A stretch of DNA of 32,630 nt from positions 1-32,630 of the forward strand of contig DATKMQ010000051.1 in the NCBI GenBank assembly GCA_035541755.1. Direction: 5' to 3'. The notes below the pieces were generated by a model. The model made no database searches. It was not told where the DNA came from and saw only the letters and a list, made by a program, of their open reading frames with translations. This stretch comes from Syntrophorhabdaceae bacterium. Its GTDB lineage: Bacteria > Desulfobacterota > Syntrophorhabdia > Syntrophorhabdales > Syntrophorhabdaceae. Position numbers and translations under genes: made by a program. This document shows, piece by piece, positions 8,457 to 31,036 of the stretch. Each line of letters begins with the position of its first letter. The stretch's first letter is position 1.

Positions 8457-8494
8457 GTTTTGACCAGGGGCGTTAAAACGCCCCTGGTCAAAAC
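8457..8494. terminator. Strong 18-bp hairpin terminator
   Basis: A perfect 18-base inverted repeat, GTTTTGACCAGGGGCGTT (8457-8474) with its exact complement at 8477-8494, separated by AA. It starts 13 bases after the stop of the second CocE-type gene. The A- and T-rich outer ends could let it terminate from either direction. Confidence 0.85.
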
Positions 8495-23582: not shown

Positions 23583-23641
23583 TAGCGAGCTAAGGGTACA
23601 GCACATTTCTTACTTCATGACGAACGATAATAGTTCGCACA
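23583..23641. repeat. Direct repeat copy A: duplicated 3' end of gap
   Basis: This 59-base segment matches 23711-23769 with two mismatches at an offset of 128 bases. It carries a second copy of the last ~10 codons and stop of gap plus the downstream GTACCCTTAGCTC sequence, but it is detached from the gene. It lies in the gap-pgk spacer. Confidence 0.9.
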
Positions 23642-23651
23642 ACCATACTCA

Positions 23652-23721
23652 GGGGCTCGCGTCGCCCCCTCCGGCAGCAAAGCTGTCGGAGCCACCCCCT
23701 CTCGCTCCCGTAGGGAGCTAA
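23652..23721 (-). repeat. Two-hairpin dispersed repeat, copy 1
   Basis: Read on the minus strand: TTAG, then hairpin I GCTCCC-TAC-GGGAGC (23704-23718), conserved GAGAGGGGG, hairpin II with CTCCGACAGC / GCTGCCGGAG arms, then GGGGGCGACGCGAGCCCC. The same plan recurs at 30838-30901 and 30946-31016 on the other strand. This copy sits between the two direct repeats derived from the gap 3' end. Confidence 0.8.
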
Positions 23722-23769
23722 GGGTACTGCACATTTCTTACTTCATGACGAACGATAATAGTTCGCACA
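23711..23769. repeat. Direct repeat copy B: overlaps the true 3' end of gap
   Basis: Partner of 23583-23641. Positions 23738-23769 are the real final codons and stop of gap; 23711-23737 are its 3' flank and include one arm of hairpin I of the dispersed repeat. The unit contains the short palindrome CGAAC-GATAATA-GTTCG. Confidence 0.9.
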
Positions 23770-24736
23770 TTCTGTTTGAAAAACCCCATTCATTGTCATA
23801 CCAGGAGAGTACCTTTGCCATGTTGCCGCCAATTACGTAGGTATTCTCGAGGTCAATTATTGAAGAGTGCTTGTTTCCGTTAAAGTCCTTGGATACAAGA
23901 GGTTCATCGCAGCAGGCGAGGATGCCTTTCATGGGTCCTTCAGCGTATGCACGAAATTTTGCATTGATTTCATCTTTTGTCGTCTTTGTCGAGAGCGTTG
24001 CAACGAAATCAACCACTGACACATTCGGGGTCGGCACGCGAATTGATATACCGTCCAGTTTGCCTTTGAGCTCCGGCATGACTTCCGACATGGCCTTCGC
24101 AGCTCCTGTAGTAGTCGGTATCATCGAAAGCGCTGCCGCGCGGGCTCTCCTCAAGTCGCTATGCGGCTCGTCATGAATTCGCTGATCATTCGTATAAGCA
24201 TGGATCGTAGTCATCAACCCGTATTCAATCCCGAACTCCCTTTGCAATATTTTTGCAACCGGCGCCAGGCAATTTGTCGTACAGGAACCCATGGAAATAA
24301 TGTTGTGTTTCCCCTTATCGTAAACTTCTTCATTTACACCAAACACGAAGGTCACATCCGGTTTTTTCGCCGGGGCCGACACGACAACCTTTTTCGCGCC
24401 CGCGCTCAGATGTTTCTCGCCCCCTTCCCTGTCAGTAAACTTTCCCGTGCTCTCAAGCACCACATCAATGCCCAAGTCTTTCCAGGGCAGTTTTTCCGGC
24501 TCCTTCGTCTGAAACGTCTTAATGTCAACCCCGTTGACGGCAATGGCGTTGTCTTTAGCCTTAATATCGGCATCGATGATGCCGTGAATGGAATCGTACT
24601 TCAGGAGATGGGCAAGCGTCTTCGGGTCCGTAATGTCATTGATGGCCACAAATTCAACGTCTTTGTTCTTGAGGCCTGCCCTGAGAACTAATCGTCCGAT
24701 TCTTCCGAAACCGTTTATCGCTACTTTTACGGGCAT
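23738..24736 (-). CDS. gap: Glyceraldehyde-3-phosphate dehydrogenase
   Basis: A 332-residue enzyme that oxidises glyceraldehyde 3-phosphate with NAD to 1,3-bisphosphoglycerate. The N-terminal I-N-G-F-G-R-I-G-R and A-I-N-D-I-T-D indicate NAD preference. The active-site block reads S-M-G-S-C-T-T-N-C-L-A-P (Cys152), slightly unlike the usual S-N-A-S-C-T-T-N-C. The base lies in T-T-I-H-A-Y-T-N-D-Q, and the C-terminus has W-Y-D-N-E-W-G-F-S-N-R. GGGGAGG lies seven bases before the ATG. It is the first gene of gap-pgk-tpiA-secG, although the 199-base spacer to pgk carries repeats that may alter read-through. Confidence 0.98.
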   Translation of the reverse strand: MPVKVAINGFGRIGRLVLRAGLKNKDVEFVAINDITDPKTLAHLLKYDSIHGIIDADIKAKDNAIAVNGVDIKTFQTKEPEKLPWKDLGIDVVLESTGKFTDREGGEKHLSAGAKKVVVSAPAKKPDVTFVFGVNEEVYDKGKHNIISMGSCTTNCLAPVAKILQREFGIEYGLMTTIHAYTNDQRIHDEPHSDLRRARAAALSMIPTTTGAAKAMSEVMPELKGKLDGISIRVPTPNVSVVDFVATLSTKTTKDEINAKFRAYAEGPMKGILACCDEPLVSKDFNGNKHSSIIDLENTYVIGGNMAKVLSWYDNEWGFSNRMCELLSFVMK

Positions 24737-30735: not shown

Positions 30736-30837
30736 ATTAATTTAACCAGTTACAAATAGGACTGGTAGACCCGTGACATTCATCAGCTTGCGGGGGTAAG
30801 ATAAGCCCGCTCATAACACGAAGCCAGGCTGTATATA

Positions 30838-30901
30838 TAGCTCATTCATGAGCGAGAGGGGGAAGCTCCGACAGCTTGGCTGGTGGAGGGGGCGACGCGA
30901 C
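30838..30901 (+). repeat. Two-hairpin dispersed repeat, copy 2
   Basis: TAG, then hairpin I GCTCAT-TC-ATGAGC (30840-30853), conserved GAGAGGGGG, hairpin II with CTCCGACAGC / GCTGGTGGAG arms, then GGGGCGACGCGA. It lacks the final GCCCC seen in copies 1 and 3. It starts 109 bases before copy 3. The 30656-31240 gap holds, besides the two copies and the two promoters, no gene that I can support. Confidence 0.8.
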
Positions 30902-30945
30902 GAAACAGGCGAATTCGGGAGCTTCAAGGCAGTTCTGAGCGGAGC

Positions 30946-31016
30946 TTAGCCCATTCATGAGCGAGAGGGGGAGGCTCCATCGAGCTCTCGCCCGTGGAGG
31001 GGGCGACGCGAGCCCC
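30946..31016 (+). repeat. Two-hairpin dispersed repeat, copy 3
   Basis: TTA, hairpin I GCCCAT-TC-ATGAGC (30949-30962, one mismatch), conserved GAGAGGGGG, hairpin II with CTCCATCGAGC / GCCCGTGGAG arms (one bulge, one mismatch), then GGGGGCGACGCGAGCCCC. The arms of hairpin II differ from copies 1 and 2 yet still pair. Confidence 0.8.
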
Positions 31017-31036
31017 GGTAAGTAGAAAGAATGTGC

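Follow-up and report, generated by a model that had tools for sequence, protein, structure and literature searches.

Three short repeats in a 32,630-nucleotide stretch of DNA from a Syntrophorhabdaceae bacterium (the whole stretch is hereafter the window) carry hairpins whose arms differ between copies while remaining able to pair, raising the questions of whether selection acts on a folded molecule and of how such a repeat reached its sites. A sequence-only reading had placed these copies at 23652-23721 (minus strand), 30838-30901 and 30946-31016 (both plus strand), and all three were confirmed there by the sequence and by covariance-model hits. Copy 1 (23644-23722, minus strand; 91.3 bits with model R1, E = 6.8e-18 in the window's genome) is a complete element that contains hairpin I, GCTCCC-tac-GGGAGC (23704-23718; sequence, RNA and DNA folds), hairpin II, CTCCGACAGC-ttt-GCTGCCGGAG (23669-23691; sequence, folds and covariation), and hairpin III, GGGGC-gacgcga-GCCCC (23652-23668; sequence and folds), followed by a TnTAATAG-type tail. 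Copy 2 (30836-30909, plus strand; R1 56.4 bits, E = 9.2e-10) is truncated inside hairpin III, with its matching part extending to about 30901, and its hairpin I reads GCTCAT-tc-ATGAGC in the sequence (30840-30853). Copy 3 (30945-31024, plus strand; R1 69 bits, E = 1.0e-12) is complete, with a mismatched hairpin I, a degenerate inner hairpin II, and hairpin III as GGGGC-gacgcga-GCCCC (31000-31016; sequence and folds).

The unit had been described as having two hairpins, which overlooked the third, GGGGC/GCCCC; copies 1 and 3 have it in full, whereas copy 2 has it in truncated form. The arm changes that had been pointed out were read correctly from the sequence, both in hairpin I (GCTCCC/GGGAGC in copy 1 versus GCTCAT/ATGAGC in copy 2) and in hairpin II (CTCCG..CGGAG in copy 1 versus CTCCA..TGGAG in copy 3). 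In addition, hairpin I of copy 3 is GCCCAT/ATGAGC, with one C-A mismatch, and hairpin II of copy 2 is CTCCG..TGGAG, containing a G-T pair. A palindrome with 18-bp arms elsewhere in the window (8457-8494, GTTTTGACCAGGGGCGTT-AA-AACGCCCCTGGTCAAAAC) is unrelated to the element and is possibly a terminator.

Consensus and distribution of the family

Searching species-representative genomes with a sequence pattern yielded at least 120 stretches, from which a unit of ~79 nt was evident: hairpin I, the block GAGRGGGGA, a GGCTCC/GGAG hairpin II, a GGGGC/GCCCC hairpin III and TnTAATAG, with hairpin III (consensus GGGGC-GACGYRA-GCCCC) directly abutting hairpin II. When copies were aligned on the core, information climbed from ~30 nt before GGCTCC and ended sharply on the 3' side, ~8-10 nt past the CCCC of hairpin III (TnnAATAG), beyond which the flanks were random.

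The sequence-only reading had called for a genome-wide covariance-model search, against the possibility that only the three copies exist. A model built from 45 copies found 30-32 in the window's genome (3.85 Mb, 180 contigs), where a DNA query gave 23-27 matches. Within the window's family the element was present in 29 of 39 genomes, at 1 to 86 copies per carrier, and its distribution was patchy in a phylum sample, where it was found under stricter filters in 14 of 297 genomes. Copy numbers in 22 named genomes ranged from at least 2 to at least 131, counts that depend on the number of candidates scored. Among the matches listed, the record titles of carriers named Syntrophus sp., Syntrophorhabdus, other Deltaproteobacteria, Nitrospirae/Nitrospira/Troglogloeales and Bdellovibrionales, and all of the data are metagenome-assembled genomes. 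Two candidates, L117 (titled Methanomicrobiaceae) and L058, were excluded as not resembling the element, and a hit in an Acidobacteria MAG (L037) has exactly the sequence of a Syntrophobacterales copy (L107), which may reflect faulty binning. Searches of the Rfam covariance models gave no match to the element, those of viral contigs, plasmids and phages found no copy, and those of the open-access literature found no published description of this repeat family.

The composition of the unit was variable. In many copies from several genera, a second module, CCGGGTACCCGC..GCGGGTG, took the place of either the 5' arm of hairpin II or GAGRGGGG (for example L033, L034 and L035 of the window's genome, L053, L074, L112 and L120). 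Tandem element arrays, with units of 77-148 bp that include flanking host sequence, were seen at L074, L084, L095, L139, L143 and L156.

Fold and covariation

The 45 copies were aligned with MAFFT from sequence only, blind to the fold. In this alignment 93.0% of cells were paired; shuffles gave 83.2%, and sliding the 3' partners gave 37-55%. Double-sided changes were found in 107 cells, compared with 32.4 in shuffles. Eight pairs had both sides changed, and the score (0.276) was higher than in the shuffled (0.103) and slid (at most 0.063) controls. The compensating arm changes that had been claimed, of which the three window copies alone show little, became certain once these relatives were added, and the proposed selection on a folded RNA or single-stranded DNA was upheld, as the arms co-vary above both controls. 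The sense strand forms three hairpins, and this fold is maintained by compensating changes.

Variation was concentrated in hairpin I and the central part of hairpin II. Hairpin III and the outer CTCC/GGAG pairs were nearly invariant and hence uninformative, partly because the search pattern had fixed them. Hairpin I of many copies contained a G-A/A-G tandem in place of two Watson-Crick pairs (GCGAGC..GCGAGC). G-T pairs (82-93) were far more frequent than A-C mismatches (10-17), indicating that the listed strand is the folding strand, an asymmetry that does not discriminate RNA from single-stranded DNA. When single copies were folded with RNA parameters, the z values were -1.3, -0.6 and -0.8 for copies 1, 2 and 3; under DNA parameters the expected hairpins formed in copies 1 and 2 (z of -2.6 and -2.3), and the fold of copy 3 was degenerate with both parameter sets.

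Insertion at gene ends and inside genes

Copy 1 follows gap (GAPDH; 23738-24736, minus strand, from its translation), the 3' end of which is duplicated around the element. The duplicated host segment is seen as a direct repeat with a 128-bp period and a 54-55 nt match: its upstream copy, which comprises the gap 3' end and the element start, lies at 23715-23769, and its downstream copy at 23587-23641 (both minus strand); the latter begins exactly at the element 3' end, 10 nt after CCCC. Although gap was present in 39 of 39 family genomes, at 30 gap loci from the window's genome and its relatives the readable gap-pgk spacers were short and element-free, except in the window's genome and in the same-genus genome G342, which has its own copies in this spacer. 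The downstream duplicate (~55 nt) was missing from relatives.

The same arrangement recurred in the family. A duplication starting 5-12 nt after CCCC was found in 23 of 254 distinct copies, compared with 0.4 expected from swapped flanks, and duplications at other offsets in these 254 copies were few, tandem arrays aside. Copies arise through insertion, with a fixed 3' end and a variable 5' junction, a model that depends on the minority of copies (~9%) with a detectable duplication; no young example, caught in the act of moving, was found. The clear duplicated segments were 17-86 nt long and were nearly always the 3' end of a same-direction gene, including gap, acs, flgG (in two genera), an rplL-like gene, bacterioferritin, a tRNA and 5S rRNA, as named from sequence reading. 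At some 5' junctions the target and the element 5' end had 7-9 nt in common (CTTAGCTC, TAACGACT, CCCTTAGC), and a scan of all copies gave a weak excess of 4-6 nt target-duplication matches besides the ~20 clear cases. We regard these insertion scars as the most interesting feature of the family; any mechanism beyond the defined 3' end and variable 5' end is a proposal.

A larger island ending in the element was rejected as a candidate, as the duplicated segment was never more than 250 bases upstream, with the exception of one tandem array. Gene-specific integration was also rejected, since upstream genes common to several genera were few and, by a rough estimate, look compatible with chance.

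At four loci (L060, L082, L133 and L136) the duplicated gene end exists in two versions, which differed by 28 synonymous and 2 non-synonymous codons, although one version alone is translated as the gene's end and drift would give ~20% synonymous changes. Phages and islands that integrate at gene ends leave substitute 3' ends that are similar, but no cargo was present between the two versions here. Plain target duplication and subsequent drift do not account for this bias, to which recombination between lineages via the repeat, or the assembly of related strains into chimeras, may contribute. A more speculative idea, which we think rather unlikely, is that an element copied via a folded single-stranded intermediate carries a gene 3' end into the same gene of another lineage. 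If this were true, gene ends would be swapped for synonymously different versions by a shuttle of cellular gene ends, possibly RNA-templated, in bacteria.

The copies had been called intergenic, which holds for those in the window; the family as a whole also has copies inside genes. Open frames on the sense strand, with at least 50 codons on each side, contained 32 of the 254 copies, 25 of which read REGEAPxALPxEGATxAP; some of these 32 are not real genes, and several are beyond doubt. A single Pfam domain spanned the element in QueA, a pyridine nucleotide-disulphide oxidoreductase and a molybdopterin oxidoreductase; QueA could be aligned with structure 1yy3 on either side of its insert, which falls between residues 92 and 95, and LeuRS also aligned on both sides of its own. 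The element lay between domains in MetRS, RimP, PBP1A and a zinc alcohol dehydrogenase, and AmtB of the window's genome (L014) had two tandem copies between its signal peptide and first membrane segment. Every homology-supported case was on the same strand and in the same frame (..REGEAPxALPxEGATxAP..). A second-module variant in this AmtB also keeps the frame (..REGKAGYPLAGG..). Because one sense frame is free of stops, the element tolerates translation, and it is therefore found both beside genes and in frame within them. The upstream gene was co-directional for 45 of 65 copies in the genomes examined; an apparent bias to standing before genes, seen in a crude ORF analysis, was discarded when better gene calls showed a bias behind co-directional genes. 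Protein evolution thereby gains a ready source of in-frame inserts of ~26 residues, and the element will mislead the annotation of gene ends and linkers in carrier genomes.

Candidate mobilisers and known repeat systems

We consider it likely that these copies form a ~79 nt, non-autonomous, strand-specific family of hairpin mobile elements that is REP/RPE-like in its working and is mobilised in trans. An enzyme supplied in trans would recognise the folded single strand, either single-stranded DNA or RNA, and would attach the defined 3' terminus of the element to host DNA. Closure on the 5' side would follow at variable places, at times duplicating 20-86 bp from the 3' end of the upstream gene, and tandem arrays would form by slippage between the duplicates. 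Selection would purge gene-breaking copies, sparing those that are in frame or stand downstream of a co-directional gene. Single-stranded DNA is slightly favoured over RNA as the folded strand, because there are copy-rich genomes without a reverse transcriptase.

The enzyme could instead be a reverse transcriptase, as in a SINE-like element in which the 3' end of the RNA would serve as primer or acceptor for reverse transcription at the target, producing variable 5' junctions and variable target duplications. The fixed 3' end, the variable 5' junction with its 20-86 nt duplications, the 7-9 nt of common sequence at some junctions, and the origin of nearly all duplicated segments from 3' ends of transcribed genes, tRNA and 5S rRNA included, are all consistent with this possibility. 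However, RVT_1 was detected in no more than 10 of the 39 genomes of the family. It was missing from the 100% complete G344, which has 86 copies, and from G177 and G266, where copies with perfect duplications occur. A reverse transcriptase neither tracked copy number nor flanked copies and was rejected as the mobiliser, and a SINE-like origin is possible but, in our view, unlikely.

Mobilisation by a RAYT (TnpA-REP) HUH transposase, as in a REP/BIME family, is the link that had been suggested from the window, and it seems improbable. Small size, hairpins, high copy number and tandem pairs would suit such a family, as would the Y1_Tnp genes of 32 of 39 family genomes, but the only Y1_Tnp protein of the window's genome (L036) has no copies beside its gene, one 99% complete genome (G097) has 73 copies without any Y1_Tnp, and a copy was near only 1 of 50 Y1_Tnp loci examined. 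Furthermore, GGAG is paired within hairpin II, leaving no free tag. With copy number not tracked and no flanking copies, Y1_Tnp was also rejected, and no mobilising gene was found among the Y1_Tnp and RVT_1 genes checked in family genomes.

It is similarly improbable that the element is a host-useful RNA, such as a 3' UTR stabiliser or regulator, selected at each site. The strong covariation and the co-directional upstream genes described above would be expected of such an RNA, but its sites are not conserved (gap-pgk), few upstream genes are common to several genomes, mostly within one genus, and copies are also found within genes that are unrelated to one another and as tandem arrays. The idea that GC-rich hairpins arose by chance, or that sequence was simply copied with no structural constraint, can practically be dismissed: single copies fold as RNA just slightly better than shuffles, but the covariation beats both the shuffled and slid controls, and the wobble asymmetry and sharp boundary also argue against chance.

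The earlier suggestion of a REP/MITE-like family was borne out in that the element is dispersed in many copies, although it matches none of the GTAG/RAYT, CGTC or MITE definitions. GTAG REP/BIME sequences are high-copy hairpins, often clustered, mostly downstream of genes and occasionally intragenic (PMC3733652), all of which our element shares. They have an unpaired GTAG-type tag and a single palindrome of 20-40 bp, whereas the element has three stems, is about twice the size at ~79 nt, keeps GGAG paired and lacks a RAYT association. CGTC REPs resemble it in having some intragenic members and no dedicated transposase (PMC3733652); however, the CGTC tag, single 8-9 bp stem, AT first pairs and CCA tail that characterize them (PMC3733652) are absent from the three-stemmed consensus. 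Like MITEs, the element is short, non-autonomous and located near or inside genes, but terminal inverted repeats of the MITE type were not found around the window copies (the ends, CTTAGC and TAATAG, are not complementary), and its duplications, where present, are long and variable in length.

RPEs are small palindromic repeats without a known transposase that occur between genes and in frame in unrelated genes, where they code for a conserved peptide (PMC10969869, PMC3733652). The element likewise occurs in frame in unrelated protein genes (QueA, LeuRS, MetRS and others) with a conserved coded peptide. Compared by description, RPEs are ~150 bp long and belong to Rickettsia, whereas the element is ~79 nt long, with three separate hairpins and a defined 3' end, and its hosts are Syntrophorhabdaceae-type, other deltaproteobacterial, Nitrospirae and Bdellovibrionales MAGs. 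Our best reading is that of a new family among known small hairpin mobile DNA, with the RPE comparison being one of descriptions. In-frame palindromic insertions have so far been seen as an oddity of Rickettsia and a handful of other genomes, and to our knowledge no agent that moves RPE or CGTC-type repeats has been described. A fold, a strand, a 3' end and insertion scars across several uncultured lineages make this question testable.

Two further repeats were seen near element copies. In the copy-rich genome G344 (L243, L245, L246 and L253), another short repeat, of the CCAAAAGTAGGTGCCTTAAGCAGCG type, occurred beside and inside element copies. At L008 and in the flank of L022, a related tail variant, GGGGCTGATGACGAGCCCC, was present in place of GGGGCGACGYRAGCCCC, which suggests a sister subfamily.
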